Positions 1,938 through 59,785 of a stretch of DNA of 64,000 bases are shown one piece after another. Source of the stretch: Primulina eburnea (Eukaryota > Streptophyta > Magnoliopsida > Lamiales > Gesneriaceae). Numbering within the stretch: position 1 is the first letter of the stretch; each line of letters opens with the position of its first letter. The notes under the pieces are model-generated. The model was not told the origin of the DNA and did not search any database. It was given only the letters and a program-made list of their open reading frames with translations. The translations under genes and the position numbers were made by a program. The stretch lies in contig NC_133104.1 in NCBI RefSeq assembly GCF_022965805.1, positions 22,901,308 to 22,965,307 of the forward strand, given 5' to 3'.

Positions 1938-1950
1938 CTTATATATATAC
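1938..1950 (-). promoter_or_regulatory. TATA-like box of the TE-B LTR promoter
   Basis: GTATATATATAAG on the minus strand, about 50 bp downstream of the motif array in the direction of transcription. The same order is seen in the other gypsy LTRs of this window. Promoter function is inferred. Confidence 0.5.
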
Positions 1951-1998
1951 TACATGCATGTTCAAAATCGTGGCATAGTTCTTAGCTTTGCACGTCAC

Positions 1999-2226
1999 AC
2001 CGCGGGTGCGGTCCCTGCAGCACCGCGGGTGCGCTTCAGACTCGGCAATTCTATCTAAAATGCACAATTCATGACCGCGGGTGCGGCTCTTCCAATACCG
2101 CGGGTGCGGTCTGGCACCGCGGGTGCGGTGTATGCAAGACCGCGGGTGCGGTCTTGCTTCGCCCAAAATTCCTACCCTACTGGACTTACACCGCGGGTGC
2201 GGCGTAAACAAGGGCGCGGGTGCGGT
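1999..2226 (-). repeat. U3 array of ACCGCGGGTGCGGT motifs, four pairs
   Basis: Eight copies start near 1999, 2022, 2074, 2097, 2116, 2139, 2190 and 2213. Each copy can fold on itself (ACCGC against GCGGT). Within a pair the spacing is always 23 bp; pair-to-pair spacing is 75, 42 and 74 bp. The motif is very CpG-rich in an otherwise AT-rich LTR. Confidence 0.9.
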
Positions 2227-2356
2227 CTTGCACGTTCTAAAAATTTATATTTTGCTTCGAGCAACATCCCATAATCTTATCTGATCAATTCTACAAGTCT
2301 TGGGATATTTCAGTAATCTTGTCTGATCATTTTTACGACAATTCTGGGGCATTACA

Positions 2357-2372
2357 TTTCTCCCCCTCTTAG
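2357..2372 (-). other. Polypurine tract of TE-B
   Basis: On the minus strand AAGAGGGGGAGAAA abuts the LTR start TGTAATGCCCC, the expected place for plus-strand priming. Confidence 0.8.
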
Positions 2373-3219
2373 ATCTGAGTTCGTCCCCGAACTCATGACA
2401 ATTCCATCAAATATAATAGAAGAAATATGTAACAGATTTTAACATCCAAACTCGTTTTACTAACGTCATTCTGAGGTATTTTTCTTTGATCAAGCTCTGA
2501 TTCTGGTCTGGAATCAGAAGTCAAGAAGTATAATATCATAATCCTTCTTCAACTCGTTCTAGCCGAATCAATCCCGCATTACCAGCTATACTTGGTATTG
2601 ATTCAATTCTGAAATCTACCTTTCTGATATCAAACACATCTGAAATCTTATCTAGGCAACACCAGTCAACTATTGTACTACTAGCAACTCTGTCATTGCT
2701 AGACTCGATTTCAATGAATCTATTGAATACATAAGGATACCATCTGTTCCTTTTTGTAATAATCGAGTCATAAACAGTACAATAATTTAAGGAATTCTGG
2801 ATCTAGAATCCTTACCGGAAAATCTCCGTTTATCAGCCAGATCTGGTCTGAATCTTACCGTTTCTGGCACACATTCTACGATATTTCTGTACTTGTTTAG
2901 CATATACATGTCAAAAATGCACTCAGAATCATATAACACAAGTACATCACAATCTAGTTCAATCTCAATCTTATCTAACCGTGGTATATCATGTCACAGA
3001 AATCTCTGATATCAACATATTCCTCAACAACCAAAGAATCAATACTATAGTAAACACAGATTCAACAGATATAGCATATCTCCATGCTACTCAATCACAG
3101 ATACTCATAAATAATGCATTAATACATATCAATACCTATGCATATAATCATAAAAGGAATAGCACCTGTTGCGAATTCTGGGTCTGTTCTTTAGTCATTA
3201 CCACCAATGACTCTGTGCT
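2373..3219 (-). pseudogene. TE-B residual pol and 3' non-coding region
   Basis: No open frame of use. Short stretches resemble the decayed region between protease and reverse transcriptase of TE-H (around 56100-56400), for example the shared run near 2640-2760 and 56210-56340. Protease, most of reverse transcriptase, RNase H and integrase are absent. The segment is therefore a pol remnant reduced to under 0.9 kb. Confidence 0.55.
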
Positions 3220-4248
3220 TTAAGATCTTCGAAAATGCCTCTGAGGACAAACTTTAGCAAAGTGTCCCGTCTGCTTACAGATATTGCACTTACCAAGCAC
3301 TCCTTGGCATTGTTCTGTAGAATGTCGCCCTCCACACGTCCTGCAATACACTCCGGTATAGCTCGGACTAGGACTGCTAGAACTAGAGGAATCACTTCCT
3401 AACTTCTTGAACAGTTTCTTTTGAATCTTCAATGGTTCTTTCTTCCTATCACTGCTGCTGCCAATCTCAACTCTAGAAGGTAGTTGCTGTGGATTTGATG
3501 TTGGAAGATCATACGAGACTCCCTGTTGTCCTATCAGAACCGTTTCTGCTCTTTTGGCCCTGTTCAGGGTGTCAGCAAAACTACTCGATTGCTTCACATT
3601 CACCAATGTACGTATTTCTGGATTTAATCCCTGAATGAACTGACTAGATATAGCATAATCGTTTCTAGCCATGAGAGGGGCAAAACGTAACAAGGTGAAG
3701 AACTGTGCTAAGTATTCATCAATACTCATCTGACCCTGTTTTAGGTTTGCAAATTCTGCACTTCTGTCCTCTCTATATGACACGTGGAAGAATCTTTGGT
3801 AGAACTCAACCTTGAAAATCTTCCATGTAATCACTGAACGACTCTGCTCTAAAGCTCCTTTGGTGAGTAACCACCATTTTCCGGCCGCTTCGTGCAACTG
3901 GTTCTCAATAAGCCTAATTCTACACTCATCTGTGAAACTCAGGAATTCAAATAACATTTCTGTCTCCTCCAGCCACTTCTCACAATCTGCTGACGTCTCA
4001 TTTCCCTTCAGAACCGACGGCTGAAATGACTGGAACCTCTGTAACTGTGTTTCCATCTGAATTTCTGACACGTCTATCTGAGGTTCTGACCTACCTGTCT
4101 GATCATATGAAGTACTGCCTCTTTCTGGAATTCTTCTGGCGGTACATCTGATTACCAAACACATTAGTAATCTAGTACTACAAATCTGTACCAATCTTTC
4201 TCTGATCATGATCATCTTATTGCTGATCATGAATCTGATCTGATTCAT
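3220..4248 (-). CDS. gag: TE-B Gag polyprotein (342 aa reading frame)
   Basis: Capsid and nucleocapsid precursor of a Ty3/gypsy element. The capsid-like domain includes EKWLEETEMLFEFL, the AAGKWWLLTK tryptophan pair and QRFFHVSYREDR. Near the C-terminus are two zinc knuckles: CRTCGGRH...C, slightly atypical in spacing, and CNICKQTGH...C, a regular CX2CX4HX4C. A basic KKLFKKL segment and a serine run precede them. The frame is uninterrupted while pol has decayed. The ancestral start matching MPPRR in TE-A would lie at 4147, but a small indel there (ATGTACCGCC) puts that ATG out of frame. The upstream in-frame Met at 4248 gives about 35 extra residues unlike other gags, so the true start is uncertain. 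Confidence 0.8.
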   Translation of the reverse strand: MNQIRFMISNKMIMIRERLVQICSTRLLMCLVIRCTARRIPERGSTSYDQTGRSEPQIDVSEIQMETQLQRFQSFQPSVLKGNETSADCEKWLEETEMLFEFLSFTDECRIRLIENQLHEAAGKWWLLTKGALEQSRSVITWKIFKVEFYQRFFHVSYREDRSAEFANLKQGQMSIDEYLAQFFTLLRFAPLMARNDYAISSQFIQGLNPEIRTLVNVKQSSSFADTLNRAKRAETVLIGQQGVSYDLPTSNPQQLPSRVEIGSSSDRKKEPLKIQKKLFKKLGSDSSSSSSPSPSYTGVYCRTCGGRHSTEQCQGVLGKCNICKQTGHFAKVCPQRHFRRS

Positions 4249-4516: not shown

Positions 4517-4521
4517 CCTGT

Positions 4522-5062
4522 TGTGGGGACCCGGACGCTAATCATCTTCTTAATCGTCGTTGGGATTTAATTATCAGTTCTGATAAACAGGGTCTAAAAT
4601 TTTTTTCTTTTTAATTTATAACTGCAGAAGGTAATGGACTCTAAATACTATACATGTCTGTATATAAAAATACAAATTCAGTATTAAAATACAATAATGT
4701 ACAACCTTCTAATCTAAGGTTTAAAGTTCTAGTAGTAAAGTCCAATCTACTGTAAGTCCGGAATCACCACGCTAAACTCGTCTTCTCGCATCATCTTCTC
4801 GACCCTGATCCAGCCCCACCTGTTGTCATGCACACATACAAAACACGACAACAGCCGGATAACTCCGGTGAGAATAAATCCCAGTATAAAACATGGTAAG
4901 CATGTATATACACAAACTAATTCATAAAACATGCGATCATGTATAAACACAATATATTTCATAATCTATGAAATTAAGCATGTAGCTCAAATCAGATAAA
5001 CATGCATATAAACAATCTAAATCATAAAACATGCTAGCACAACTGAAAGCAATAACGATGGG
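4522..5062 (-). repeat. TE-B 5' LTR, first part (before Athila insertion)
   Basis: Matches 197-737 of the other LTR with few substitutions. It stops exactly at the ATGGG target site (5058-5062) of TE-C and continues at 18219. Confidence 0.92.
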
Positions 5063-6575
5063 TGACCGACGATTTCGGTTGGGAATAATTCTAGCAAGCG
5101 GACTAGGTCAAGTTATAGTAAATGGACGTACTGTCCAAGTATCGATCCCACAGAGACTATTATTTAATTACTAAGATTCGATTATTTTATTTAATCTAGG
5201 CAAACAATAACGAGCGATTGGATTGTTATTTCAACTAAGTAAATTTTCAAACTAATGTATACTAATTAAATGACTAAATCAAATTTCCGGGAGGCTTGGA
5301 ACTTGGGGATTTTCAAATTTAAATGAAATGACCGGGAACACACGATGATAACAAACTTTTGATTAATATCATGCAATGGAATTATTTAACTATAGATCAT
5401 TTGAAGTCACGATGCGATTCTCTATATTAATTATAAATCTATTTCTAGAATTTATAATCCTATTTTCATTTAACAGTCCAAATATTTCTAATTGAATTTA
5501 ATTAAACAAAAACGCATTCATCAACGATAAAATCACAGCTGTCGCCTAAAATCGCACACTGAAACCGAATACTATTTCTAGTCGGTTTAACCGCGTGTTG
5601 ATTAATATTTTTGAAGCTAAATTTAATCAATTCTCTTTCGAGTCAAGATTAAACAACAAACATGCAAATAATTGGCCAAATTAAAAGCACGAAATTTATA
5701 CAAATATTAATCAATAACATAGAACAATTTTATAAATCAAACACTTCAATGAATAACAAAAATCAATCGTTTGTTCCTATCGTGGTCCCGATCACTAAAG
5801 AAAACTACTCCATAAATTCAAAATTAAAATCAAATTTAATAATTGAATTCATGAATAAAACTAAGAAATTAAAAGAGACGAGAAAATCTCAGCGATGACG
5901 CGCAGATATGCGTGTGAAGCGCGTTGGTTTCTCCCTCGATTTTCTCCCCGAGCCGTTGCCTTCTTCAACAAGTATGAAATCTCCTTCAAAACTCTCCAAA
6001 AGTCGGCCGCCTCCAATCTCTGAACAACCCTATTCTATCTTCGATTTTCTCTTTTATTTTCCTTCAGATTACGCGCAAATCTTTTCCAAAATCTCGATCT
6101 GATATTACGCACACGGACCCCGTGCTTGCATCCGGGCAAGGGTCCGTGTAGACTCTGCCTCAAAATTCTTCCGGAATGGTGGACACGGACCCCGTTCCTG
6201 GGTCCGTCCTGGGGTCCGTGTACAAACTGTATTTTTCTTCTTCCGGATGCAAGCGACACGGACCCCGGATACAAGTCCGGCAAGGGGTCCGTGTAGACTC
6301 TGTGATTGTCTTCCTTTGGCTTCAGATGCACGGACCCTTACACGGGGTCCGTGTATGGGTCCGGATTTCCACTTTTGCTATTTTTCCGGCATTTTTGACG
6401 TGGCATTGCGGAGTTTGACTTTTCTTTCATTTCTTTGGCTTTCATCCTCTTTTGGTCAAACCTACAATTTGCCATAATATACGAATTAAGCGCAAAACTC
6501 GGAATAAAACATGCCAGATAAGCACGAAAACGACAAAATAAAGACCCTAAAACACTATATAATTCGTGCTTATCA
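5063..6575 (-). repeat. TE-C 3' LTR (1513 bp)
   Basis: Near-identical to 16700-18213. The reading frames inside it at 5662-6102 and 6176-6477 appear equally in the other LTR and follow the motif array, so I do not call them genes. Confidence 0.93.
6111..6365 (-). repeat. ACACGGACCCC array in the TE-C 3' LTR, four 72-bp units
   Basis: Units start at 6111, 6183, 6256 and 6328 (steps 72, 73, 72). In each, CACGGACC is mirrored by GGTCC(G) exactly 29 bp further on, and in the second and fourth units also 17 bp further on. The inverted arms would allow stem-loops. Confidence 0.9.
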
Positions 6576-6586
6576 ACTCCCCCACA
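6576..6586 (-). other. Polypurine tract of TE-C
   Basis: Minus strand TGTGGGGGAGT directly before the LTR start TGATAAGC. Confidence 0.85.
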
Positions 6587-7644: not shown

Positions 7645-8705
7645 TTCACCAATTCACTATCGATGAGTAAAAGTTTGACCACGTGCATTGAACAAAATGT
7701 TGATACATAACTGGTTCATGTTAGACTCTCTCCTTGAAACTACAACTCCTCTCACTCAATACTAGGCATGAAGCAATTTTCCGGGTGATCCAAAATCTAA
7801 CAAATTAATCCGATTATCAAGTGAAACACGAGTTCTTAGTCTACAAATAGTTCCATCCTACGTGAAAAGTGCTGTTAAGTGTTGTGCAACGATGTGTAAC
7901 AAAACTGACTCACCCCCACACTTTGAACTCGACACTGCCCTCAGTGTAAAACAATATAATTTGGACTAGCATGAATGTGAAAGCAAAAATACTTCCCTGG
8001 TTAGATGTCGCGCACGTGGTGGAAAGAGGTAGAGATCAGCCAATCCTGAAAGAATGACATCGAATGCACCAAGACAAACACCGTAAAATGGAAAAGATAA
8101 AACACGAAAGCACTCCAATAAAATCCAAAATAACGTACACGGACACCGTGTAGTGGTCCGTCCTGAGGCCCGTGTAGACTCTGTAAATCGGCTATTCTGA
8201 AAGTGGAGGACACGGACCCCGTGTAGGGTCCGGGGCCAGATCCGTGCAGACTCGGGAAGTTGGCAAAATTGAGAGTTAAGTACACGGACCCCGTGTATGG
8301 GTCCGGGGTAGGGTCCGACTGGTCTCGGTATTTGAAAACGAAATTTACACAAGATGTTATACCATGCATGTACAATTCTATAAATCTAGAACTCAAATTT
8401 TAAACTCAATCAAGCACACAAGATGCAAGAATTGTACAGAAACTTCCCTGATTTGTTCGAGATTTTAAAAATCGATGGTCTTGATAAATTCTCCCACACC
8501 TGATAAATTCCACCGCCAGTAGATAAATTACCTGCACCACCATTCACTGAGATTAGCTTACGAATAATGCGGGAGAAAAAAAAAGAAAGTAAATTAGAAC
8601 AAATAAAATAAACTAAAGCATGAAAGAAAAAATAAAACTAAACACTGGGTTGCCTCCCAGTAAGCGCTAAATTTAGAGTCGATAGCCTGACTGTACTCCA
8701 TTGAT
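6587..8705 (-). other. TE-C 3' non-coding region (former env position)
   Basis: In full-length Athila elements this place often holds an env-like frame. Here I find none. It contains T-runs at 7206-7220 and 7604-7640, a second ACACGGACCCC array (8137-8318) and the short inverted word TGGGTTGCCTCCCA near 8646. The minus-strand frames at 7966-8396 simply read through the array. Confidence 0.7.
8137..8318 (-). repeat. Second ACACGGACCCC array inside TE-C, three units
   Basis: Units start at 8137, 8210 and 8282 (steps 73 and 72), with the same layout and the same AGACTCTG or AGACTCGG word after the second arm as in the LTR arrays. It lies outside the LTR, 1.6-1.8 kb from the LTR edge. Confidence 0.88.
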
Positions 8706-12655: not shown

Positions 12656-13776
12656 TGTAGTGACCCGTTCCAGAATCACCTACTAATCAAAAACTAAGCA
12701 TGCAATTAACCTAATTAACAATAATCAGAGATAACAGCGGAAATAGTCAACAAAAATAATGGTTATACAACCCAATCGAAGTCTAGAATAACTCAAAATA
12801 AAAAATACCCAATACAACCATATCGAATCAAAACAATACCGATAAACTAAACCAACCAGCTACTCAACGTCCTCCTCCTGCTCCTCCTGAGCTGTCCAAC
12901 CTGAGGCCTGCCCCGTGGGAATGGGGTGTCCAAGAATAAACAAAACCGAGGACGTGAGCGATAAGAACGCCCAGTACAAAAGTATGAGTATACAGACCTA
13001 TATGAAATGCACATGCTATGATCATGATACCGGGGTAGTCAAGAAACAGGAGTCACAAAAGGATCTCAACAATGCTCAGTCTAGAGGCGCCAAGTGGATA
13101 GTGCCGCGCGGTACACCTCTGGGTCACTGCATCCACTACAAGACAGACGTGGACCTAAAATGTCCCGGACCACCGAAGCCCTCCCGACCCGTCGGCCACT
13201 GTGTACTCTCGGTGTCCATGCGTCCACAAGACAGGGCTGAGCGGCCCCAAGATATAGCTTATCTCGAAAGAGATACAGCTCAACAGTAAAGGCTATCTCG
13301 AAGAAGATACGGCTCAACATGATATGCAATATGCATCATAACTCGTGACATAATAGCATGCATCATATGACATATAACAATGCAGCAAATACTCATGCAA
13401 CACATATATGAATGTATACTCAACCAGGATATCTCGGATAGTACTTTCGTACCTCTATCACAGCAAGCCTAGCCTTACGCAACACCGCTAATCAGGTCTA
13501 GAACAAGCCTACGCATCAAAAGCATACTCAATCAATACTACCATGCTCGACTAGCAAAACCAGTACTCCCTAGTACTACCAAAGGTTTAGGGTTTACCTT
13601 CGTCCGTCGACAGCCCTTTGATGTCGATTGCCTCGTAACTCAGGCGCCGCTACGCTACTACTCCTGGCAGCTCTTGGCTATCGCTCGACCAACAACTAAC
13701 CCTAGAAACCTTCCAAACTCTCCAAAATGAGAGAAAACTCAAGAAATTGGCAAGTCAAAAATGAGAAATCCGAGCA

Positions 13777-13786: not shown

Positions 13787-13792
13787 GCCATG

Positions 13793-14076
13793 TTCGGATC
13801 CTCCGAACAACACTTCGGAACGTCCGAACGCTACGTGTCCATTGGCTCTTGACAGCTCATGATCGGATCCTCCGATCATACACTTCGGACCGTCCGAACA
13901 TGCACGTGTCCAGCTGCTCTTGACACCTCATGATCGGATCCACCGAACCTACACTTCGGAACGTCCGAACTCCCACGTGTCGATCAACTCTTGACACCTA
14001 ATGATCGGATCCACCGAACTCACTTCGGACCTTCCGACCTCTTCGGTGCTTCCGAACCATCTTCGGTCCGTCCGAT
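13793..14076 (-). repeat. U3 array of TCGGA...TCCGA palindromes, TE-D 3' LTR
   Basis: Pairs of motifs such as CGGATCCTCCG and TCGGACCGTCCGA start at 13795/13816, 13864/13886, 13935/13957 and 14006/14026, followed by 14044/14064. In-pair spacing is 20-22 bp and the period is 69-71 bp. Spacers share ACGTGTCC and CTCTTGACA. Confidence 0.92.
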
Positions 14077-14160
14077 CATGACTCGGTCAAAATTACACAT
14101 TAAACCTTCTTAATCACCATTACTCCGTTAATTACCCAATTTGGAATTCGGGCTACTACA

Positions 14161-14173
14161 TTCTCCCCCCCTT
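14161..14173 (-). other. Polypurine tract of TE-D
   Basis: Minus strand AAGGGGGGGAGAA abuts the LTR start TGTAGTAGCCC. Confidence 0.8.
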
Positions 14174-14520: not shown

Positions 14521-16025
14521 TGTAGTGACCCGTTCCAGAATCACCTACTAATCAAAAACTAAGCATGCATTTAACCTAATTAACAATAATCAGAGATAAC
14601 AGCGGAAATAGTCAACAAAATTAATGGTTATACAACCCAATCGAAGTCTAGAATAACTCAAAATAAAAAATACCCAATACAACCATATCGAATCAAAACA
14701 ATACCGATAAACTAAACCAACCAGCTACTCAACGTCCTCCTCCTGCTCCTCCTGAGCTGTCCAACCTGAGGCCTGCCCCGTGGGAATGGGGTGTCCAAGA
14801 ATAAACAAAACCGAGGACGTGAGCGATAAGAACGCCCAGTACAAAAGTATGAGTATACAGACCTATATGAAATGCACATGCTATGATCATGATACCGGGG
14901 TAGTCAAGAAACAGGAGTCACAAAAGGATCTCAACAATGCTCAGTCTAGAGGCGCCAAGTGGATAGTGCCGCGCGGTACACCTCTGGGTCACTGCATCCA
15001 CTACAAGACAGACGTGGACCTAAAATGTCCCGGACCACCGAAGCCCTCCCGACCCGTCGGCCACTGTGTACTCTCGGTGTCCATGCGTCCACAAGACAGG
15101 GCTGAGCGGCCCCAAGATATAGCTTATCTCGAAAGAGATACAGCTCAACAGTAAAGGCTATCTCGAAGAAGATACGGCTCAACATGATATGCAATATGCA
15201 TCATAACTCGTGACATAATAGCATGCATCATATGACATATAACAATGCAGCAAATACTCATACAACACATATATGAATGTATACTCAACCAGGATATCTC
15301 GGATAGTACTTTCGTACCTCTATCACAGCAAGCCTAGCCTTACGCAACACCGCTAATCAGGTCTAGAACAAGCCTACGCATCAAAAGCATACTCAATCAA
15401 TACTACCATGCTCGACTAGCAAAACCAGTACTCCCTAGTACTACCAAAGGTTTAGGGTTTACCTTCGTCCGTCGACAGCCCTTTGATGGCGATTGCCTCG
15501 TAACTCAGGCGCCGCTACGCTACTACTCCTGGCAGCTCTTGGCTATCGCTCGACCAACAACTAACCCTAGAAACCTTCCAAACTCTCCAAAATGAGAGAA
15601 AACTCAAGAAATTGGCAAGTCAAAAATGAGAAATCCGAGCACTATTTATAGGCCATGTTCGGATCCTCCGAACAACACTTCGGAACGTCCGAACGCTACG
15701 TGTCCATTGGCTCTTGACAGCTCATGATCGGATCCTCCGATCATACACTTCGGACCGTCCGAACATGCACGTGTCCAGCTGCTCTTGACACCTCATGATC
15801 GGATCCACCGAACCTACACTTCGGAACGTCCGAACTCCCACGTGTCGATCAACTCTTGACACCTAATGATCGGATCCACCGAACTCACTTCGGACCTTCC
15901 GACCTCTTCGGTGCTTCCGAACCATCTTCGGTCCGTCCGATCATGACTCGGTCAAAATTACACATTAAACCTTCTTAATCACCATTACTCCGTTAATTAC
16001 CCAATTTGGAATTCGGGCTACTACA
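14521..16025 (-). repeat. TE-D 5' LTR (1505 bp)
   Basis: Same length as 12656-14160 with four substitutions noted by eye. It ends at the AGCTG duplication. Its copy of the palindrome array is at 15658-15941. Confidence 0.95.
15658..15941 (-). repeat. U3 palindrome array, TE-D 5' LTR
   Basis: Identical in layout to 13793-14076 (offset 1865 bp). Confidence 0.92.
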
Positions 16026-16699: not shown

Positions 16700-18213
16700 T
16701 GACCGACGATTTCGGTTGGGAATAATTCTAGCAAGCGGACTAGGTCAAGTTATAGTAAATGGACGTACTGTCCAAGTATCGATCCCACAGAGACTATTAT
16801 TTAATTACTAAGATTCGATTATTTTATTTAATCTAGGCAAACAATAACGAGCGATTGGATTGTTATTTCAACTAAGTAAATTTTCAAACTAATGTATACT
16901 AACTAAATGACTAAATCAAATTTCCGAGAGGCTTTGAACTTGGGGATTTTCAAATTTAAATGAAATGACCGGGAACACAGGATGATAACAAACTTTTGAT
17001 TAATATCATGCAATGGAATTATTTAACTATAGATCATTTGATGTCACGATGCGATTCTCTATATTAATTATAAATCTATTTCTAGAATTTATAATCCTAT
17101 TTTCATTTAACAGTCCAAATATTTTTAATTGAATTTAATTAAACAAAAACGCATTCATCAACGATAAAATCACAGCTGTCGCCTAAAATCGCACACTGAA
17201 ACCGAATACTATTTCTAGTCGGTTTAACCGCGTGTTGATTAATATTTTTGAAGCTAAATTTAATCAATTCTCTTTCGAGTCAAGATTAAACAACAAACAT
17301 GCAAATAATTGGCCAAATTAAAAGCACGAAATTTATACAAATATTAATCAATAACATAGAACAATTTTATAAATCAAACACTTCAATGAATAACAAAAAT
17401 CAATCGTTTGTTCCTATCGTGGTCCCGATCACTAAAGAAAACTACTCCATAAATTCAAAATTAAAATCAAATTTAATAATTGAATTCATGAATAAAACTA
17501 AGAAATTAAAAGAGACGAGAAAATCTCAGCGATGGCGCGCAGATATGCGTGTGAAGCGCGTTGGTTTCTCCCTCGATTTTCTCCCCGAGCCGTTGCCTTC
17601 TTCAACAAGTATGAAATCTCCTTCAAAACTCTCCAAAAGTCGGCCGCCTCCAATCTCTGAACAACCCTATTCTATCTTCGATTTTCTCTTTTATTTTCCT
17701 TCAGATTACGCGCAAATCTTTTCCAAAATCTCGATCTGATATTACGCACACGGACCCTGTGCTTGCATCCGGGCAAGGGTCCGTGTAGACTCTGCCTCAA
17801 AATTCTTCCGGAATGGTGGACACGGACCCCGTTCCTGGGTCCGTCCTGGGGTCCGTGTACATACTGTATTTTTCTTCTTCCGGATGCAAGCGACACGGAC
17901 CCCGGATACAGGTCCGGCAAGGGGTCCGTGTAGACTCTGTGATTGTCTTCCTTTGGCTTCAGATGCACGGACCCTTACACGGGGTCCGTGTATGGGTCCG
18001 GATTTCCACTTTTGCTATTTTTCCGGCATTTTTGACGTGGCATTGCGGAGTTTGACTTTTCTTTCATTTCTTTGGCTTTCATCCTCTTTTGGTCAAACCT
18101 ACAATTTGCCATAATAGTACGAATTAAGCGCAAAACTCGGAATAAAACATGGCAGATAAGCACGAAAACGTCAAAATAAAGACCCTAAAACACTATATAA
18201 TTCGTGCTTATCA
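16700..18213 (-). repeat. TE-C 5' LTR (1514 bp)
   Basis: Partner of 5063-6575. It ends TTATCA at 18213 before the ATGGG duplication. Its ACACGGACCCC array is at 17748-18002. Confidence 0.93.
17748..18002 (-). repeat. ACACGGACCCC array in the TE-C 5' LTR
   Basis: Four units in the same register as 6111-6365 (offset 11637), with three point differences noted. Confidence 0.9.
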
Positions 18214-18218: not shown

Positions 18219-19814
18219 TCCCATGATCTAGGAGCCACATCCATATAAGTATGAAATCCTAATCAAATCATGTCTAGACTTGACTCGATCTGTAACTCCA
18301 GGGATCCCGGGGTGAATAAGACGTCACTGTCTGTCACCTACCCTACCAATCGAGGTGCTGTACGTCTTATTCCTAGACTTCGGCCTGATCTATATCCGCA
18401 TCTACAATAGGGGCGGTGATCTTCCCCTAAGCTGTGATATCGCCGAACGTCTAGAAGTCTGCCTGATCTCCAGACTGTCCTATCTTAATGCATGAATACA
18501 AAATCTGTAAACAAGCATAATCATCTTAATGCAATGCAACATGATCTGTAAACAAAGCATAGCAAGATTTGCATACAAGTTCTATAAACAAATCTATAAA
18601 CAAGAATATAGTATGTGATTTATTGGGCAACTCAAATGGTGATCTCAATTGAGTTGTTTCTTCCCGAATATCACATGAATTATACCTTTGTCGTCCCCGT
18701 CCAAGGAAGACGAAGTCTTGAAGTCCAGTCTGTCCATATCCGATCTAAAATGTCAAAATCAAATACACTGTATCACTGTGTAGCTCAATTCACAATCTGT
18801 GCTGATCAATACTCAATTCAGTATACAATCTGATCAATGTCTGAACAATATACAATCTGAGTCGTATCAATAATATCCCGATATAATCTAAATCATATCT
18901 GAATCTGATTAATCTGTTCCAGCATATGAATATCTAACAAATACATCCTCAGAGATGCTGAAATGCAAAACACCGACATACGATATTCTTTCTTTGATCT
19001 GACTTCACATATTTACTGAATAATCTATCCAGACATACAAGAATAATCATCTATTCATTCTTCAATCAAGAACAATACAAATCTAGTGTTTGATCCCAAT
19101 CAATATCTTTCGAAAATCATAACAATTACAGAAACAGTCTGTTCTTTAATCTGAATTCAATTCTATAATGTCTACGGTAGTATAAACGTCATATCTGAAT
19201 CACATGCAATTCTAGCAACATCATATTTCCAAAATACTGCAAAACGTAATGAAACTTACGTCCTTGTGTAGCTCTAGGCGAGAGGAGTTCAGAACTAACG
19301 TCGGATTCGAATTCTGCTACACGGTTTCTTCACAAATCAATTTAGAACCTCACGAAGACAAGTTTTCTCTCCAACCTTCAATTTCTGCTTCTTTCTCCTC
19401 TGAAAGACACGAGTTCCACTTATATATATACTACATGCATGTTCAAAATCGTGGCATAGTTCTTAGCTTTGCACGTCACACCGCGGGTGCGGTCCCTGCA
19501 GCACCGCGGGTGCGCTTCAGACTCGGCAATTGTATATAAAATGCACAATTCATGACCGCGGGTGCGGTCTGGCACCACGGGTGCGGTGTATGCAAGACCG
19601 TGGGTGCGGTCTTGCATAGCCCAAAATTCCTACCCTACTGGACTTACACCGCGGGTGCGGTGTAAACAAGGGCGCGGGTGCGGTCTTGCACGTTCTGAAA
19701 ATTTATATTTTGCTCCGAGCAACATCCCATAATCTTAACTGATCAATTCTACAAGTCTTGGGATATTTCAGTAATCTTGTCTGATCATTTCTACGACAAT
19801 TCTGGGGCATTACA
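18219..19814 (-). repeat. TE-B 5' LTR, second part
   Basis: Continuation of 4522-5062. The two parts total 2137 bp, exactly 23 bp less than the other LTR because one motif unit is missing from the array at 19480-19684. Confidence 0.92.
19480..19684 (-). repeat. ACCGCGGGTGCGGT array, TE-B 5' LTR (one unit fewer)
   Basis: Motifs near 19480, 19503, 19555, 19574, 19597 and onward. Compared with 1999-2226, the 23-bp unit corresponding to 2074-2096 is gone, and some motifs have C-to-T or G-to-A changes at CpG (CCACGGG, CCGTGGG). Confidence 0.88.
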
Positions 19815-21651: not shown

Positions 21652-21934
21652 ACCGCGGGTGCGGTCACGTTAACACCGCGGGTGCGCTATGCTCTCGGCA
21701 ACCCTATCATTTTTCCCAAAATAGCGACCGCGGGTGCGGTCTCTGCAAGACCGTGGGTGCGGTCTTGTCACCGCGGGTGCGGTGATGCTACGAATAAAAT
21801 CTGCCAACTTACTGTCCATGCACCGCGGGTGCGGTCTAGGTTGCACCGCGGGTGCGGACTGGCTTTGGTTTTTCTTGCTAAATTCTATCATTGCATGACC
21901 GCGGGTGCACTCCTGTTGTGGGCTCGGGTGCGGT
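21652..21934 (-). repeat. U3 array of ACCGCGGGTGCGGT motifs in TE-A LTR
   Basis: Pairs at 21652/21675, 21727/21750, 21822/21845 and 21897/21920, all 23 bp apart, plus a single copy at 21770. Pair steps are 75, 95 and 75 bp. Same motif and layout as TE-B. Confidence 0.9.
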
Positions 21935-23166: not shown

Positions 23167-23291
23167 TGTAAGGCCTGATATTTTTTCATTGTAATCTGAA
23201 ATTAATTAATTGACAAATTGACGTGATTATGGAAGGAAAAGCCCGAGGGAGACATGAGAAAGCATGGATTACGTGTGAGACCATAAGACCT

Positions 23292-23779
23292 TGCGCATAT
23301 GCACGGTGATGAGGCACGCATATGCGCGAGCTGCCAAATGTGGAGGCAAAATACCTCGCGCATATGCGCGAGCAGATGGAAGTTATTCCAGAAGACCTCA
23401 CTCATATGCACGGAGATGAGGCGCTACAACTTGTCTATATCCTTAGGCATGTTTTGCTGGATTTTCCTCACCCGTTGTGTTGAATCTAGCCGGCCTTCTT
23501 AGAGTGAGTTCTGGATCATTCGTATTCATTGTAAACCCTTGAGCTACCACCAAATTCCTCTTCTTAGCAACTCGTGTAATGTCGCGGTTATCTACCAACT
23601 CTGATTCCAAGGTTTACTAGTGTTTCTTTTTTGGTGACGAAAGGTATTCAATCTAAAGGGAAGGGATCTACTCAAGAGAAAGATATTAGTTACTAATATG
23701 CACAAGCTGGTGCATTTGAAAGTGCCGAGACAGAGAGTCTCGTGCATATGCACCAGTGTTGGATGCGCATATGCGCGAG
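23292..23779 (+). repeat. CGCGCATATGCGCG motif array, LTR copy 1 (interrupted)
   Basis: CATATG centres at 23296/23319 (23 apart), 23361, 23403, then 23745/23768 (23 apart). The full motif is a perfect palindrome. Positions 23430-23690 do not belong to the array. Confidence 0.8.
23427..23617 (-). pseudogene. Unrecognised short coding-like fragment inside the LTR
   Basis: An open minus-strand stretch of about 59 codons without an early Met. It includes ELVDNRDITRVAKKRNLVV and LTLRRPARFNTTGEENP. Composition looks protein-like and the fragment is absent from the related LTR at 25155. I do not recognise the family; it may be a captured gag or host piece, or chance. Confidence 0.3.
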
Positions 23780-25285: not shown

Positions 25286-25482
25286 CGTGCATATGCGCGA
25301 CCAGTAGGCGCGCATATGCGCGAGATGGTCAGAGAACCTCGTGCATATGTGTGGAGGGTGTACGCGCATATGCGGGGAGCCTGTGCGAGTGAAGTCCAGA
25401 TATGCGCGGAAATGAGGCGTGCATATGCGCGAGCTGCCGGGAAGACACACGCTGAGACATAATGTCTCGCGCATATGCGCGA
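25286..25482 (+). repeat. CGCGCATATGCGCG motif array, LTR copy 2
   Basis: Centres at 25290/25313, 25344/25367, 25399/25422 and 25472. In-pair spacing is 23 bp and the pair step 54-55 bp. Confidence 0.9.
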
Positions 25483-35265: not shown

Positions 35266-35409
35266 TCGCACATATGCGTGCATCTACCCGCGCATATGCG
35301 CCGAAGGTTCTGGGCATGTCGCGCATATGCGTGTCTTTACTCGCGCATATGCGCCAAAGCTTCTCTAATTTTCGCGCATATGCGCCGCTACCTATCGCGC
35401 ATGTGCGCC
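35266..35409 (-). repeat. CGCGCATATGCGCG motif array, TE-E 3' LTR
   Basis: CATATG (last one CATGTG) at 35271/35293, 35324/35346 and 35377/35400. In-pair spacing is 22-23 bp, pair step 53 bp. Spacers include GCGCCGAAGGTTCTG. Confidence 0.92.
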
Positions 35410-41231: not shown

Positions 41232-41628
41232 CATGAAAATCACACGTGGCGTCTCCAACTTTTGCCACAAAACTACTCGTGCATATGCGCGCATCTACCC
41301 GCGCATATGCGCCGAAGGTTCTGGGCATGTCGCGCATATGCGTGTCTTTACTCGCGCATATGCGCCAAAGCTTCTGTAATTTTCGCGCATATGCGCCGCT
41401 ACCTATCGCACATGTGCGCCAAGCCTTTCTGAGATGTTCGGCCGAACATCTTGAGATGTTCGGTTGAACAGCTTGGCTTATAATGTAACGATGCCCGGCT
41501 TCTTAATTCAAGTTTGTATAACCTCAATCATGTCAATTGATCAATAAATCATTCCAGATTAATCTTAAATTACGGTAATTATACCCAAATCATTTCAGAT
41601 TATGGTAATTAAATTCTTAGGCCTTACA
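39378..41628 (-). repeat. TE-E 5' LTR (2251 bp)
   Basis: Partner of 33355-35595. Differences include a long TA run at 41191-41229, absence of the 32-bp duplication, and an extra 22-bp copy of the GAGATGTTCGG word near 41450. It ends GGCCTTACA. Confidence 0.9.
41277..41420 (-). repeat. CGCGCATATGCGCG motif array, TE-E 5' LTR
   Basis: Centres at 41282/41304, 41335/41357 and 41388/41411: same spacing as in the partner LTR. Confidence 0.92.
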
Positions 41629-42869: not shown

Positions 42870-43051
42870 GCACGGACCCCGTGTATGCCTCCGAGTGAGG
42901 GTCCGTGTAGGCTCTGTAAAATTACTCTCCGGAAAACAATGGACACGGACCCCGTGCACAGGTCCGCGCTCGGGTCCGTGTAGACTCGGGTTTCTCCTTC
43001 TCGACTGTACTGGGCACGGACCCCGTGTGCAGGTCCGTGCTCGGGTCCGTG
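42870..43051 (-). repeat. ACACGGACCCC array in TE-G 3' LTR, three units
   Basis: Units at 42870, 42943 and 43014 (steps 73 and 71). Mirror arm GGTCCGTG at +29 in all three, with an extra GGTCCG at +17 in two. The layout is the same as in the unrelated Athila element TE-C. Confidence 0.92.
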
Positions 43052-46335: not shown

Positions 46336-47184
46336 TGATGCGATTCTTCAATCACGAAAAGCAAACGCGCCCAAAATCCGAGTCACGCCCTCGATTCGAT
46401 GGAATAAAGAAACGTTTGTGTTTTCCCGATCTTTGAAACAAGTAATTGATAGGTGTGATAATCGCCTCTAGATCACGCAGTCTAGCAACAATTAATCAAC
46501 GAAAGAACAATCTCATTCAAGAGAACCTCCAAAGAACCCGTCCTTGGAAACCCTCGTGATATTCGATTGACAAACGCCACAAAAGATAAATCTTTTGATA
46601 AGTTTGATTTGATACAACGCAAAAGTTATAACGAAACTTAAGGTTGTGTTGAGAGAATTCTCAAAGGAATTTTCATAAACTCAATAATGAACAAAAGTTA
46701 AAAGTTTACATGGTATTCTAACTTATATATAGTTAACAAAACCCTAAATATAAAAATTGCATATTTAGAGATAACAAATCTACTTGACAAAATAATTAAA
46801 ACTCTAAAATAGGAAAATAAATCTCCGCCAAAACTAAAGGGCACGGACCCCGTGTATGCCTCCGGGTGAGGGTCCGTATAGGCTCTGTAAAATTACTCTC
46901 CGGAAAACAATGGACACGGACCCCGTGTACAGGTCCGTGCTCGGGTCCGTGTAGACTCGGGTTTCTCCTTCTCGACTGTACTGGGCAAGGACCCCGTGTG
47001 CAGGTCCGTGCTCGGGTCCGTGCAGCCTCGGGTCTTTTGAACAATGCTTGAATAATGTCCTTTGGCTTTTCCCACGCACTCCCATGCATCACGAGACCTA
47101 CTTCCTTGCTCATCAATCCTTGTAGGGCCTCTTTGAACTTCCTTAACCGTCCTTTGAACGCCATGCCTGGCCAGATTCACATCA
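46336..47184 (-). repeat. TE-G 5' LTR (849 bp)
   Basis: Partner of 42365-43213, same length. Its ACACGGACCCC array is at 46841-47022. Confidence 0.92.
46841..47022 (-). repeat. ACACGGACCCC array in TE-G 5' LTR
   Basis: Units at 46841, 46914 and 46985 (73, 71 bp), as in the partner LTR. Confidence 0.92.
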
Positions 47185-47347
47185 GCAGGCTAGCGCCGCA
47201 GTGTCGCACTGCGGGCGCTGCCGCGCTGCCAGTACGTGCCAGGCAGCGCCTAGGCGCTGCAGAGCAGCACCGCAGCGCTGCTGGCACGCACCAGGCAGCG
47301 CCGCAGCACTGCAGGGCAGCGCCTAGGCGCCAGTCTGGCGCTGCCTA
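47185..47347 (+). repeat. GCGCCTAGGCGC / GCAGCGC array, TE-F 5' LTR
   Basis: GC-rich palindromes, with GCGCCTAGGCGC at 47246 and 47319 (73 bp apart), embedded in CAGCGC and GCTGC repeats. A TATA-like TTTAAAAATAG follows just downstream (about 47364). Confidence 0.8.
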
Positions 47348-53439: not shown

Positions 53440-55301
53440 TGTAAAGCCCAAAAATCAGTATACGTAAAATCCATGCATTTATTTAAATTTTATTATCTTA
53501 ATTATTTATGGTTAATCGATCTACGTTAATAATATTTTCTCGAGTTTTATGTTTCAGGCGATTATTCAAGGCGAGATCGAGGAAAGGAGACCGGGACGAT
53601 TTTTAGTAAATTTTAATGTGGTATTTTATTTTAAGTTAGGTATGAGGCATTTTAAATGATTTATGAAGTTTTAATATTTTTAAAGCCTAATTTAAATATT
53701 AATTTATTTTAGAATTTTTAAACTTTTAAAGTTTATCAATCAGGGGATTTTAGTAAATTTATTATGGGATTAGAATTTTATTAATTTGTTGATTTGTTAA
53801 CATTTTTATTAGCATGATTTATTTATTTAAAGACACTTTATAATTACTAATTAGGTGGTTTATTACACACCACACACACATATTAAAATATTCAATTATT
53901 CCAACATTTTTTTTTCACACACACTCATACACGTAAAGCACATACACACACACACACACACATGTTTTTCAATGTTTTTGACTTAAGGGGAATGGAAGTT
54001 TTCTTTAACTTCTCTTCTTTCCATCTCCACATCACTACTCCCCTCTCCAAGTTCTCCTTTCCAAGAGCACGTCCACTCTCTGCAATATTCCAGTAATTTT
54101 AGTTCACTTTTATTTCAAGAAAATCGAGCCACGTTCATCCGGATCAATCCTAGCACTCGTTCCGCTTCGGTATCGCCGGTTCGGTAACGTTTGAGCAGAA
54201 ATGTGTTGAATCAATTTTGAAACGTTTTTGGATCTAAAAATTTGAATTTTTCTGTCTTTTCGTGTGCTGCGAATTTTCGGTCACTTATCTCGAAAACTTT
54301 CAACTAGAAAAACGTAGATCTTTTTGATACCTTCGATTTGACAGTAAATTCAAAATATTTGGATAAACATTGAGTGAGTTATGGTTGTTTTCGTGAGACT
54401 GCTCAAATGTGTTTTCTAAAAAAAAATGTGTTATTGTCATGTTCTTGAGAATTTCTTGTTGCAGGCTTCGTTGGGAATCGTCGGAGGTTCATTGCTGTGT
54501 TTAAGAGTGTCCATTGGGTTGATCATGTGAATTTTGAGGTGTTGTCTCGAGTGGTTTAAGTTGTGCATGCATTAGAAGTCATAGGGAATTCATGTGCAGG
54601 AATTTTGGGGGTGAACAAGCGCAGGCGCTGCCTGGCACGTACTGGCAGCGCCGCGCCTAGGCGCCAGTCTGGCACTGCAGCGCTACACTGTAGCGCCTAG
54701 GCGCTGCCTACTGCAGATTTTTGGCTTTAAAAATAGTTTTCTTGCTTCTTTTGGGTACTATTAAATCTTTATATCCTAGTAAACTAAAAATTAATTTGGA
54801 TGACATGAAGTTTCATTTGGGATCATTGAACCGTGTTTTAAGCAAGGTCCGTGTCCTTCATGTTTTGGGAAAAATTTATAGTATGCATGCTTTGAGTTTG
54901 ATGTCATGGTTTAGTACTATGATTTACAAGGTCGAGTCATGGGAATTTTAGAATGTCCTAAGAGGCGATTGAGCTGGAGAGTAAGCATGCTAAGTATGTC
55001 TAAGATATGCAAGTTAAGCTTTTGAATTCATGTTAGTATGTGCAGCAACGGCCCCAATCGAGATCCAATGAATCCCTCAACACCAAGTAAGTATGTAGGA
55101 CGTGCAAAGAAAATATTTTAAGTTTTTGGAGGTATCCTAAATGTCTTGTGACCAAATTATGTTAGGATTGGAAAGCGTTAAATTATGAACGGGGACCAAT
55201 CCGCCCGTTAAATTATGAACGGGTTAGATCGAGGTTGGAAAGCGTTAAATTATGAACGGGGACCAACCAGCCCGTTAAATTATGAACGGGGATCTTATGT
55301 A
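53440..55301 (+). repeat. TE-F 3' LTR, truncated at the right
   Basis: Matches both parts of the 5' LTR and in addition carries 54032-54621, missing there. Its GC palindrome array is at 54621-54710, followed by TTTAAAAATAG at 54726. Four CGTTAAATTATGAACGGG units lie near 55177-55290. It stops at TTATGTA, where TE-H begins. Confidence 0.88.
54621..54710 (+). repeat. GCGCCTAGGCGC array, TE-F 3' LTR
   Basis: GCGCCTAGGCGC at 54653 and again at 54693 (40 bp apart). It is shorter than the 5' copy, which has 163 bp, so the array length has changed since insertion. Confidence 0.8.
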
Positions 55302-56784
55302 TTCAATTTCGAAATATTCGGCATAACAATCAGTTAATAATAAAAATTAAAGAAGAAATACCTACCTGGTATTCGGCTCTGACTATCAATATCAATTCTG
55401 TTATACTATACTGAAACATTCTGATATCATGACACAATCAGTCTAGTACAAAACACAAAATCACATATCTGTTTCTCTGACCGATACTCTGCTCTGATTA
55501 TCGAAATACTGTTCTGACCACTCTGATCACGTTTCTGAACTGCTGAAATTCTCGAATTCATTTCTGATACAAGCTGAACTGTATATACTCTCAACGGTTC
55601 ATAAAATCTGTATCAATACTGGTTCAGAATAACAATAATCTATGCTAATCTAGTAAATATATAGGATTGTAAGTTCTAACAATACTATCGATTCTGACAA
55701 ATCAATCAGATCTTCATGTCATTCTGATCAACTGCTATATATCATCTGCAAATATAATATGCTCCCCAAACAATACAATCTGTATAAGATACTGATATAG
55801 AAGCAATAATTCTCAAACAGTTCAAAACACAATCATATCAGATAATCTGTCAACTCATATAATATCAATCTCTGACAATTCTGACATTTCTGACTTTCTG
55901 ATCTTTCTGATATCGGTATCTGATCAGTCACTGATCACAATATCAACTGTCTCAAAATCAATCAGTATACTAACATCAGATATCATCTATTCTGAATACA
56001 ATCTGTTTCAACAAAATACATATCTGAACAATTTCTGTATACCAGAATCATAATTCTCAGAATATTTAATATGATCTTTCAAATATTCTTTCAATTCATT
56101 TTGTATCATTCTGTATAGACAATACCATTCTGTACTAAATCTACTATACAAACAATACCTGATCTCAATTCAATTCTGAAATTTATCTTTCTGATATAAC
56201 ACAATTCTGAAATCTTATCTAGGCAAACATCAGCCAACTTGTATAATACTGACCAATCTGTCAATACTAAACTCGATTTCAGTGGATCTACTGAATACAT
56301 AAGGATGCAATCTGCTCCTTTCTGTACTAATCGAGACATATACAATACAGATATCAAAGGAATTCAAAATCTAGAATCCTTATCGTGGTATCTCCACTAA
56401 TCAGTTATCTCTGGTCTGAATCTTACCATTTCTGGAAAAATTCTATAATATGTCTGTACTCGTTCAGCATATATATATATATATATATCATAATGCGTTC
56501 AAATCAGAAAACACAAGTCATCATAATCTAACTCGATTTCATTCTTATCTTACAGCAGTATATAAGATGTCACAGAAATCTCTGATATCAACATTTTCCT
56601 CAACAAGCTAGGAAATCAATACTACAGTACAACTAGACCCAACAGATACAACATATCTCCATGCAACTCAGTCAAAAATATCCTTATGAAATGCATTAGC
56701 ATATATCAATACATATGCATCATAATCATAAAGAATAGTACCTGTTATGGATTCTGGGTCTATTTCTCAATTGAACGTTGTTCC
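55302..56784 (-). pseudogene. TE-H decayed pol
   Basis: From gag onward, the minus strand near 56750-56700 still reads ITGTIL then DAYVLI in the gag-to-protease frame. Further on, with stops, come VRFRPEI and SRLVQKGADCILMYSVD, the region between protease and reverse transcriptase of Tekay-like elements. No catalytic DSGA or YIDD is left. The left end near 55320 resembles the RNase H-integrase linker in TE-E around 36700. Confidence 0.65.
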
Positions 56785-57684: not shown

Positions 57685-57998
57685 ATTTGAATATCAAACA
57701 AATTAGTACACAATCTATACAATCTGTCTCAGCCCTCCTCTGATCATATACCTCTAATCCAGACTCGGTTCTGATTCAGGCTTAACAATTACATGCTGCA
57801 ATCAATTCTGATAACAAACAACATGTAATAGGGAAATCATTAAATCATGCTAGCACACATCATGCAAGTCAACATTGACATAAATCTCATGCTAGCAATC
57901 ACATGCAAGGAGGACAATTCAATCTACCCCGCTCATTCTCTACTATCTCATTCTATAAGATCTATCAGTTCTGACTATCTCAATCTAAAGGATCTATC

Positions 57999-58010
57999 GC
58001 TCTGATACCA
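57999..58010 (-). other. Primer binding site of TE-H (tRNA-iMet)
   Basis: Minus strand TGGTATCAGAGC. Confidence 0.9.
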
Positions 58011-59537
58011 CCTGTTGTGGGGACCCGGACGCTAATCAATTTCTTAATCATTGTTGGGATTTAATTATCAGTTCTGATAAACAGGGTCTAAAAATTTTCT
58101 TTTAAAATATAAGTGTGGAAGGTAATGGCATCTAAATAATATATATATCTGTATAAAAGTACAATAATGTACAACAGTCTTTCAATTAATCTAAGGTTCA
58201 ACTACTAAAGTTCTAGTAATAAAACATGGTAAACATGCATATACATAAAGTAAATCACGAAATAATTCTATCATGAATAAACTTAAAAACAATAGATTTC
58301 ATAATCTATGAAATAAACTCAACATAAGCATGCAACACAAATCAGTTAACATGCTACTCAAATCAAATCATAAAAACATGATATCATAACTGAAAGCAAT
58401 AACAATGGGTTTCATAGTCTATGAAACCACATCCATAAACGCATGCAGTTCTAGTCAAATCATGTCTAGACTCGACTCAACTATAACTCTAGGGATCCCG
58501 TGATGAATAAGACGTCAATGGCTGTTACCTACTCAACCGATCGTGGTAACTGTACGTCTTATTCCTAGACTTCGGCCATGGCTGTATCGTGGTGCTACAA
58601 TCGGAGGGTGTCTGCTTCTATGTACGATACACCGAACGTCTAAAAGTCTGACTGAGCTGTCAAGACTTTCCTATCTTAGATGCAATGTATTACAATCTGT
58701 AAACAAAGCATAAATATCTTAAATTGCAATGTATAACAATCTGTAAACAAAGCATAATATAAACAATAAAGCTAGTATGTGATTTTTGCTGGGAAACTCA
58801 AATAGTATCTTATTTGAGTTGTGTCTTCCCGAATATCACATGAATTATACCTTGGTCTTCACTGTCTGATGAAGACGATGACCTGTATTCAAATCTGTCC
58901 ATATCCAATATGAAAAGACAATATCGAATACATAGTATCAATGAATAACTCAATTCACAATCTGTTCTGATCAATACTCAACTCAGTACCAAATCTGATC
59001 AATATCTGAACAATATACAATCTGATTCATATCAATGATATCACGATATAATCGAAATCATTACTGAATCTGATCAATCTAATCAACTGATGTTTCGACG
59101 GCATAACAATACAATCTGAATAACCCCTTCAATCTGAACATCCCAGATATAATACCAGAACTCATAATCTCAATATCGATATATTCAAAATCAATAATAT
59201 ACAATTCTGATATTAAAATCTCAGTCAATATCTTTCAAAAACAATAACAATTACAGAAACAGTCTGTTCTTTAATCTGACTTCAATTATACAATTTCTAC
59301 TGTAGCAGAAACATCATATACGATTTATATTCAATTCTGACAATATCATAAATTCAAATCTTGTCTAAACGTAACAAAACTTATGTCCAGAGTAAGCCTG
59401 CGTTGATAGGAACACACTACCGAAGTCAGATTCAAAATCTGACGGACGGATTTATCGTACTTAATTTCCAAAACTCAAGAACGAAGCCTTTCCCCAACTT
59501 CTCGATTTCCTTCTGATTATTCTGAAGGATTTGCATG

Positions 59538-59559
59538 TGTATATATATATATATATACA
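59538..59559 (-). promoter_or_regulatory. TATA-like zone of the TE-H LTR
   Basis: TA alternation of about 20 bp, some 50 bp downstream of the array in the direction of transcription. Confidence 0.5.
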
Positions 59560-59606
59560 TCCATGACATGCATGAAAGCAAGTGGCGCACTTCCTGATTT
59601 CCAGGT

Positions 59607-59785
59607 GGCGCTCGGGCGGTCAAAAATTACCGCCCGGGCGCCGAACCTTCTGCCCGGTTACTTATCTTACAATTCCCTGGCGCTCGAGCAGTCAATTTCT
59701 ACCGCTCGGGCGCCACACGTTCTCTCCAAAGATCAATTTGCGATGCATTGGCGCTCGGGCGGTCCTTTTCAACCGCTCGAGCGCC
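59607..59785 (-). repeat. U3 array of GGCGCTCGGGCGGT / ACCGCCCGGGCGCC pairs
   Basis: Inverted pairs at 59607/59629, 59679/59701 and 59750/59772. In-pair spacing is exactly 22 bp and the period 72 and 71 bp. Spacers include CGAACCTTCTG and CGAAGGTTCTG. Confidence 0.93.

Follow-up and report, generated by a model that had tools for sequence, protein, structure and literature searches.

Paired palindrome arrays in gypsy LTRs of Primulina eburnea as candidate exchangeable promoter cassettes

Palindromic repeat boxes that form CpG islands and carry a CGG-CCG core lie upstream of the TATA box in Copia Sireviruses, extra boxes occur in the linker before the envelope gene, and the motif is called Sirevirus-specific among the Copia elements compared, according to the sections available of Bousios et al. 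2010 (PMC2829016). In gypsy elements, plastic 5′ CpG islands in the long terminal repeats (LTRs) of Del have been suggested to be a moving target for silencing, and Cruz et al. 2014 (PMC4029996) describe the island from elements of grasses but found none for the eudicot group. Two further systems, both taken from excerpts, are the targets of VANC, which are short tandem motifs in non-coding DNA that diverge between related Arabidopsis VANDAL elements (PMC5735166, PMC10398659), and the bursts of ONSEN, in which recombination yields mosaic LTRs within one family, one event lying inside the unique 3′ region (U3) (PMC5668417). Here, we report that a 64,000-nucleotide stretch of the Primulina eburnea genome (the window; NC_133104.1, positions 22,901,308 to 22,965,307, assembly GCF_022965805.1) is, by self-comparison, a nest of LTR retrotransposons, here named TE-A to TE-H, P1 and P2, and that a CpG-rich array of short spaced palindromes, or dyads, is present in 10 of the 10 LTR families that could be delimited with their U3.

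These arrays resemble the Sirevirus boxes in that each LTR holds many palindromic, CpG-rich boxes whose sequence varies by element, not far upstream of a TATA-like word in seven families, and one TE-D unit (13886) reproduces the HOPIE box, CGGACCGTCCG, exactly. The CGG-CCG core is matched by TE-D (CGG-N5-CCG) and by TE-C and TE-G (CACGG-N3-CCGTG) but not by the majority dyad, CGC-N4-GCG, and the Sirevirus carriers are Copia, whereas those in the window are Ty3/gypsy where the coding sequence tells (TE-A, TE-C, TE-E, TE-F, TE-H). The paired spacing of 21-23 bp, the centre classes and the apparent exchange of arrays between LTR backbones found here are absent from the Sirevirus description in the available text of PMC2829016. 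A linker array in TE-C (8138-8319) may parallel the Sirevirus boxes before the envelope gene; no envelope open reading frame (ORF) was recognised there by eye, and none was sought by profile. Like the arrays here, the islands of Del, a name equivalent to Tekay, are CpG-rich stretches, variable in length and sequence, that lie in the 5′ half of gypsy LTRs. The present arrays differ from them in lying in a eudicot and in having a defined dyad grammar, and the words palindrom and tandem are absent from the accessible text of Cruz et al. VANDAL elements are DNA transposons that encode the binding protein, and their motif, YAGTATTAY, is not palindromic in the excerpts at hand; no such protein is among the ORFs scanned here (a Pfam scan of 20 of the 45 window ORFs of at least 120 aa). 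The exchange described for ONSEN stays within one family, whereas here an H-type array sits in F-like LTR flanks. LTR swapping in soybean is reportedly another case of plant LTR recombination. Among the matches listed in the open-licence literature, none describes, for gypsy LTRs, palindromes arrayed in pairs, classes of centre or an exchange of arrays.

Dyads, centres and spacing in the LTR arrays

The dyad CGC-N4-GCG (CGCNNNNGCG) occurs 44 times in the window against 2.07 expected, none of 100 shuffles reaches 44, and all 44 lie in LTR arrays. It is common to TE-A, TE-B, TE-E, P1, P2 and TE-H, and more loosely to TE-F, with a 4-bp centre that is ACCC in TE-A and TE-B, ATAT in TE-E and the two P elements, YCGR in TE-H and CTAG in TE-F. 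The arrays and their TATA-like words are as follows:

1999..2226, minus strand: TE-A 3′ LTR array, 8 dyads CGC-ACCC-GCG at distances of 23, 51, 23, 19, 23, 52, 23
1938..1949, minus strand: TE-A 3′ LTR TATA-like sequence, with the last dyad about 51 bp upstream of it
19480..19684, minus strand: TE-A 5′ LTR array, 7 dyads, one fewer than in the 3′ LTR
21652..21934, minus strand: TE-B LTR array, 9 dyads with centre ACCC; TATA at about 21602
35268..35409, minus strand: TE-E 3′ LTR array, 6 dyads with centre ATAT at 23, 31, 22, 31, 22; TATA at about 35217
41279..41420, minus strand: TE-E 5′ LTR array, laid out as in the 3′ LTR
59605..59785, minus strand: TE-H LTR array, centre YCGR, three inverted pairs at 22, 49, 22, 50, 22; TATA at about 59557
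25286..25481, plus strand: P2 array, centre ATAT, partly decayed; TATA at about 25534; LTR start 25156
23290..23430, plus strand: P1 array, centre ATAT, interrupted; a further pair at about 23739-23777
47190..47335, plus strand: TE-F 5′ LTR array, rich in G+C, with CGC-CTAG-GCG at 47247 and 47320 and looser dyads spaced 22, 31, 21, 31, 21
54615..54710, plus strand: TE-F 3′ LTR array, CGC-CTAG-GCG at 54654 and 54694; cannot be aligned with the 5′ LTR array
13794..14080, minus strand: TE-D 3′ LTR array, ten CGG-N5-CCG, mostly TCGGA-N3-TCCGA; TATA at about 13785
15659..15945, minus strand: TE-D 5′ LTR array, identical to the 3′ array
6112..6365, minus strand: TE-C 3′ LTR array, CACGGACC...GGTCCGTG units with a step of 72-73 bp; TATA word not found
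17749..18002, minus strand: TE-C 5′ LTR array
8138..8319, minus strand: TE-C extra array (CACGGACC), in the linker from the pol stop (8706) to the 3′ LTR
42871..43051, minus strand: TE-G LTR array, motif as in TE-C; TATA word not found
46842..47022, minus strand: TE-G other LTR array

When 40 units (A3, B, H, E3, P1, P2) are aligned, the majority fraction is 0.92-0.93 in the half-sites, 0.57 in the centre, 0.46-0.47 at the two outer bases and 0.39-0.42 in the spacers; the P1 and P2 units were partly picked by eye, and one of the P1 units is not in register. The units of A3 and B alone give 1.00 for the centre and 0.48-0.59 for the spacers. On these fractions, the half-sites and the gap are shared by the families, and the centre is family-specific. 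The initial annotation had placed the named motifs correctly and had considered them unrelated between groups, which no longer holds: TE-A, TE-B, TE-E, the P elements and TE-H, and loosely TE-F, share one dyad, and TE-E and TE-H also share the flank CAGAACCTTCGG beside centres that differ (12 of 14 bases agree; among 30 flank comparisons, this alone was equalled by 0 of 300 random draws). The longest word common to CGC arrays of different centre class is below 11 nt and the LTR cores share up to 44 nt, so a change of array alone would probably not hide an element from small RNAs.

A second dyad class, CGG-N5-CCG, is found in TE-D with ten per LTR, and CGGNNNNNCCG occurs 24 times in the window against 2.70 expected, 20 of the 24 in TE-D. 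TE-C and TE-G carry CACGG-N3-CCGTG within longer inverted units, CACGGACC-N21-GGTCCGTG, which are found 16 times in the window against 0.05 expected when up to 3 mismatches are allowed. The arrays of these two families agree at 72% over 192 bp in register and have GAGTCTACACGGACCC in common, and no match is left after masking of the cores; their likeness may come from descent or from convergence. Please note that the plain count of perfect dyads per array is reached by 10-87 of 200 shuffles for C1, P2, G1, P1, C2, H, G2 and F1, and our case is therefore built on the shared dyad, not on that count. The TE-F 5′ array in particular is weak evidence, its stretch being 73% G+C and its shuffles yielding equally many dyads. 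The ratio of observed to expected CpG in the arrays is 0.82-1.55, compared with 0.81 for the whole window. Pattern scans of IMG/VR returned 43 loci, 0 of them with BLAST likeness to the window, and no relatives were found for a translated ORF of the TE-E array. The word CACGTG (G-box) was seen between the dyad pairs of TE-D (13903, 13974, 15768, 15839) and just before the TATA box of TE-E (35232, 41243). In TE-C, the extra array has the pol stop on one side and, near 7905, a second polypurine-like stretch on the other.

The pair distances and steps proposed at the outset stand for most families: within pairs, 23 bp in TE-A and TE-B, 22 in TE-H and 22-23 in TE-E, with steps of 74-76, 71-72 and 53-54 bp; in TE-C and TE-G, CACGGACC and its mirror are 29 bp apart with a step of 71-73 bp, and TE-F has 73 and 40. 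For TE-D (step 69-71 bp) the proposal stands in part, with 21-22 bp in most pairs and 18-20 at the far end. Across the arrays, 22 of 53 adjacent dyads are 21-23 bp apart, where random placement gives a mean of 4.4 and 0 of 5000 random placements did so well, although the units within one array are duplicates and hence not independent in these counts. By array, the 21-23 bp distance makes up 4/7 in A3, 4/8 in B, 3/5 each in H, E3 and F5 and 3/9 in D3, and is weak in P2 (1/11, at a looser threshold) and F3 (1/3); between pairs, the distance is 31 (TE-E, TE-F) or 48-53 (TE-A, TE-B, TE-D, TE-H). The suggestion that two helical turns put the bound proteins on one face of the DNA proved weak, since 22-23 is near two turns, but 19-20, 31 and 48-53 and the steps of 53-54 and 69-76 share no phase. 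Helical phasing, judged by hand, was not significant, with too few independent values, and was set aside.

A TATA-like word lies 11-75 bp downstream of the array in seven families (TE-A, TE-B, TE-D, TE-E, TE-F, TE-H, P2), P1 being left out of the scoring as interrupted. From the last exact dyad to the first such word there are 51-52 bp in TE-A, 54 in TE-B, 53 in TE-H, 75 in TE-E, 56 in P2, 24-35 in TE-F and 11 in TE-D, and TE-E has one further dyad, with one mismatch, 22 bp closer to the TATA box. The placement upstream of a TATA box foreseen in the initial annotation is thus borne out for these seven and not for TE-C or TE-G.

Dyads across the genome and the match between array and LTR

The observation is real and far larger than the window. 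In the host genome, scanned over 812,487,562 bases, ACCGCGGGTGCGGT has 52,056 exact copies (25,597 + 26,459) and its reversed control 0, while spaced CGC-N4-GCG pairs number 142,957 vs 10,676 in the reversed control. Among the first places listed, with spacings of 15 to 44 allowed, 38 of 52 have 22 or 23; these 52 are all within the first 3 Mb of contig C1, and some are plainly duplicates. A systematic sample of 27 stretches of 10 kb at set positions (270 kb) holds 87 copies of CGC-N4-GCG vs 10 in the reversed control, present in 15 of the 27 stretches, with centres ACCC (33), ATAT or ACAT (25), YCGR (12) and others (17). Adjacent distances in the sample are 22-23 bp in 28 of 62 cases, and the spacing seen in the window thus recurs beyond it in both scans.

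We also scanned the sample for palindromes without prior choice of motif (256 four-base half-sites by 11 gaps, listed if they had at least 2 G/C and at least 8 matches). The first two ranks are GCGC-N4-GCGC (26 vs 0.25) and CCGC-N4-GCGG (28 vs 0.33), each in 5 stretches, and the other two dyad types of the window appear at rank five (CGGA-N3-TCCG, 29 vs 0.86, 3 stretches) and rank twelve (ACGG-N3-CCGT, 9 vs 0.61, 2 stretches); an unrelated dyad, GGCA-N0-TGCC, also ranks high, in 2 stretches only. Neighbouring dyads that mix two named centre classes number 0 of 52 in the sample and 0 of 52 among the listed pairs, and neighbours that involve a centre outside the named classes number 9 and 7, respectively. 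Of 15 sampled CGC arrays, 11 have a TATA-like word no more than 150 bp away on one side or both, with about 5 expected from a one-side background of 0.19. Where a sampled array has an LTR-start-like word, the TATA-like word is on the far side in 7 of 8 cases (41-82 bp, mostly near 50) and is missing in 1 of 8.

Twenty sampled arrays were compared with the window families; for 12 of them the core as well as the array had a match, and in 2 of these the two are discordant in class. In the first (L056:400-1560), the sequence on both sides of the array is F-like (79% over 210 bp, 80% over 416 bp), and the array itself is H-like (85% over 48 bp, 73% over 107 bp) with no match to F. In the second (L056:3366-4400), the core is 86% like P2 over 572 bp, and the array is identical to H at 134/185 positions and to P2 at 69/186. 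An additional locus, L044, chosen for holding the ACCC motif and not part of the systematic sample, has an ACCC array in an LTR whose core comes closest to P2 (72% over 608 bp) and to E (82% over 215 bp). That an array and its surrounding LTR can come apart is, as read from these alignments, a new finding, resting on few sampled cases. In-place change of the centre as the sole route is suggested by the flank shared between TE-E and TE-H and was not retained, as the mosaics show larger pieces moving too. The LTR bodies of the window are mosaic as well (58400-59453, 33355-35599, 194-2356): TE-H is nearer TE-E just past the TATA box (82% over 507 bp) and further on nearer TE-A (77% over 905 bp with A5).

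Candidate function and competing explanations

On balance, the arrays are probably exchangeable upstream enhancer cassettes of Ty3/gypsy LTR promoters that serve a dimeric host factor, a reading we hold with moderate confidence. Such a cassette would be a row of dyads, many of them paired 21-23 bp apart, that ends about 50 bp before the TATA box, each dyad having constant CGC...GCG half-sites around a 4-bp centre of one class throughout the array. A dimeric host factor would bind each dyad, two dimers might occupy one pair, and the centre classes may correspond to differing specificities or affinities. Tandem duplication would keep the copies within an array alike, and cassettes may pass between families by template switching during reverse transcription or by DNA recombination, which could, in a single step, supply a family of elements with a new promoter input. 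The dimeric or multimeric factor proposed in the initial annotation fits the constant half-sites, the 4-bp gap, the paired spacing, the position before the TATA box and the layout in the genome, and stays at the level of an inference from sequence. More tentatively, gypsy LTRs could draw on a common pool of swappable cassettes in which related host factors read one grammar and the centre picks the factor, lineages switching specificity by a whole-cassette swap, such that promoter input and lineage evolve independently; we regard this as possible, on the doubtful side.

Several observations weigh against the cassette reading. No TATA-like word was found in the roughly 90-110 bp scanned downstream of the TE-C and TE-G arrays or near 4 of the 15 sampled CGC arrays, TE-F fits the grammar loosely only, and gaps of 6 and 8 are raised too in the sample, though less so (52 vs 32 and 26 vs 16). 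Concordance of core and array is the rule, and both discordant arrays lie within one 10-kb stretch. In the second of them, the spacers alone agree with H at 58/103 and with P2 at 32/104, a BLAST match to P2 on the left side is confined to the first 27 bp (96%), the 5′ part as a whole resembles both to the same degree (H 73/121, P2 77/126), and the stretch from array to TATA is nearer H (61/99) than P2 (49/100), and the exchanged piece would therefore be larger than the array. On this comparison, the mosaic is decisive on one side only. A tree of the R region groups TE-B with P1 and TE-A with TE-H and needs 3 changes of array type (minimum possible 2); shuffled labels equal this fit in 85 of 200 draws, and the tree proves nothing alone.

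How the CpG-rich half-sites last bears on two of the alternatives. Between the LTRs of a pair, CpG transitions were counted at 7/111 sites in arrays and 15/256 outside, and changes at other C/G sites at 7/422 and 45/2148; TE-F was excluded, since its arrays do not align, and with it the CpG counts become 16/136 and 18/284 (p 0.08). CpG thus decays about threefold faster than other C/G sites, inside arrays and outside alike. Neutral turnover of tandem repeats, in which a GC-rich, slippage-prone stretch regenerates arrays and the palindromes and their spacing are relics of duplication, would account for the units within arrays, which are clearly duplicates, for the differing copy number in the two LTRs of TE-A and for the TE-F arrays that cannot be aligned between LTRs. 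It would hardly keep half-sites, a gap of four and a pair spacing when the spacers have diverged almost to background and the centre varies as one unit, and given the faster decay of CpG, the half-sites need renewal or selection while elements are active; we consider turnover alone unlikely. Because CpG transitions are as frequent inside the arrays as outside, no lasting protection from methylation is seen, and a protected CpG island finds no support in the decay between LTR pairs, with no sign of protection since insertion. This equality speaks against an anti-silencing system of the VANC/VANDAL type, suggested in the initial annotation, in which a protein encoded by each family would recognise that family's motif and strip off methylation, protein and motif changing together. 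Such a system would explain centres that are conserved within families and differ between them, and tandem non-coding arrays that differ between related elements are what the excerpted descriptions of VANC targets report; however, the half-sites are common to all centre classes, array type departs from the LTR in two sampled LTRs, TE-F has no extra Pfam-matching protein, and no further product was recognised in the scanned ORFs (20 of the 45 of at least 120 aa), most elements being truncated and shorter or spliced genes not having been looked for. We regard this explanation as very improbable.

The palindromes may instead act as RNA, U3 lying near the 3′ end of the genomic RNA, where hairpins could serve packaging, export, 3′ processing or small-RNA production. 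All five arrays that were folded are more stable than their shuffles (z of -4.8 for E, -5.4 for A, -7.5 for H, -4.4 for D and -6.1 for C), and Sirevirus palindromes are reported, in the text available, as small-RNA hotspots. Any palindromic DNA folds, though, and it is the TATA box that emerged as the fixed landmark; one arm may change without a matching change in the other (e.g., TGC-ATAT-GCG in P2; no formal covariation test was made), and in maize, where Copia LTRs had a peak of such structures, Ty3 elements generally did not, as far as the available sections of PMC10760457 go. A role as RNA thus seems quite unlikely to us, and we keep the promoter cassette as our preferred reading.

Elements of the window and significance

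The elements that carry the arrays were delimited by self-comparison as follows:

194-2356 with 4519-5063, and 18214-19814: paired LTRs of TE-A
5063-6576 and 16700-18214: paired LTRs of TE-C
12656-14160 and 14521-16025: paired LTRs of TE-D
33355-35599 and 39378-41632: paired LTRs of TE-E
41775-42363 with 47185-47935, and 53440-55302: paired LTRs of TE-F
42363-43213 and 46334-47184: paired LTRs of TE-G
Single LTRs, one each: TE-B, TE-H, P1, P2

In the Pfam survey, a Ty3-type gag was found in TE-A, TE-E, TE-F, TE-H and a further internal region (59912-64000), and RT-RNaseH in TE-C. The RT of TE-C shares 97% identity with a protein of Primulina eburnea. TE-F has gag, protease-RT and integrase plus a weak chromodomain, below the curated cut-off and seen in TE-F only. 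The families matched in the scanned ORFs are gag/capsid, zinc knuckle, protease, RT-RNaseH, integrase, SH3 and chromodomain only. Gypsy proteins are thus seen for TE-A, TE-C, TE-E, TE-F and TE-H; TE-B, P1 and P2 were assigned via the likeness of their LTRs, and TE-D and TE-G have no recognised coding region. The earlier claim that nearly every gypsy LTR has this architecture is therefore supported in so far as arrays occur in all ten families and is unproven as to gypsy, with proteins for five of them. Target duplications of five bases flank TE-A, TE-C, TE-D and TE-E (read by eye). TE-D (12656-16025) is young and non-autonomous, because its 1.5-kb LTRs are 99.7% identical and enclose no more than 360 bp of internal sequence. 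In TE-F, one stretch has been replaced between the two LTRs: about 665 bp in the 3′ LTR stand against about 152 bp of a different GC-rich sequence in the 5′ LTR, and the replaced stretch of the 5′ LTR adjoins the TE-G insertion. Elsewhere in the window, a tandem duplication of 196 bp (32465-32850, 97% matches) lies in an apparent Copia RNase H region, by eye, and a large inverted repeat of 90% (27214-30178) lies near it.

As far as the sequence tells, palindrome boxes of the Sirevirus type would hereby be extended to gypsy elements of a eudicot, with a rule that is testable base by base. The separation of array and LTR makes change in the control regions of retrotransposons countable, as array class against the phylogeny of the flanking LTR. 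The 142,957 spaced pairs in one genome may, in addition, act as a large sink for the host factor, whichever it is, that binds to them.

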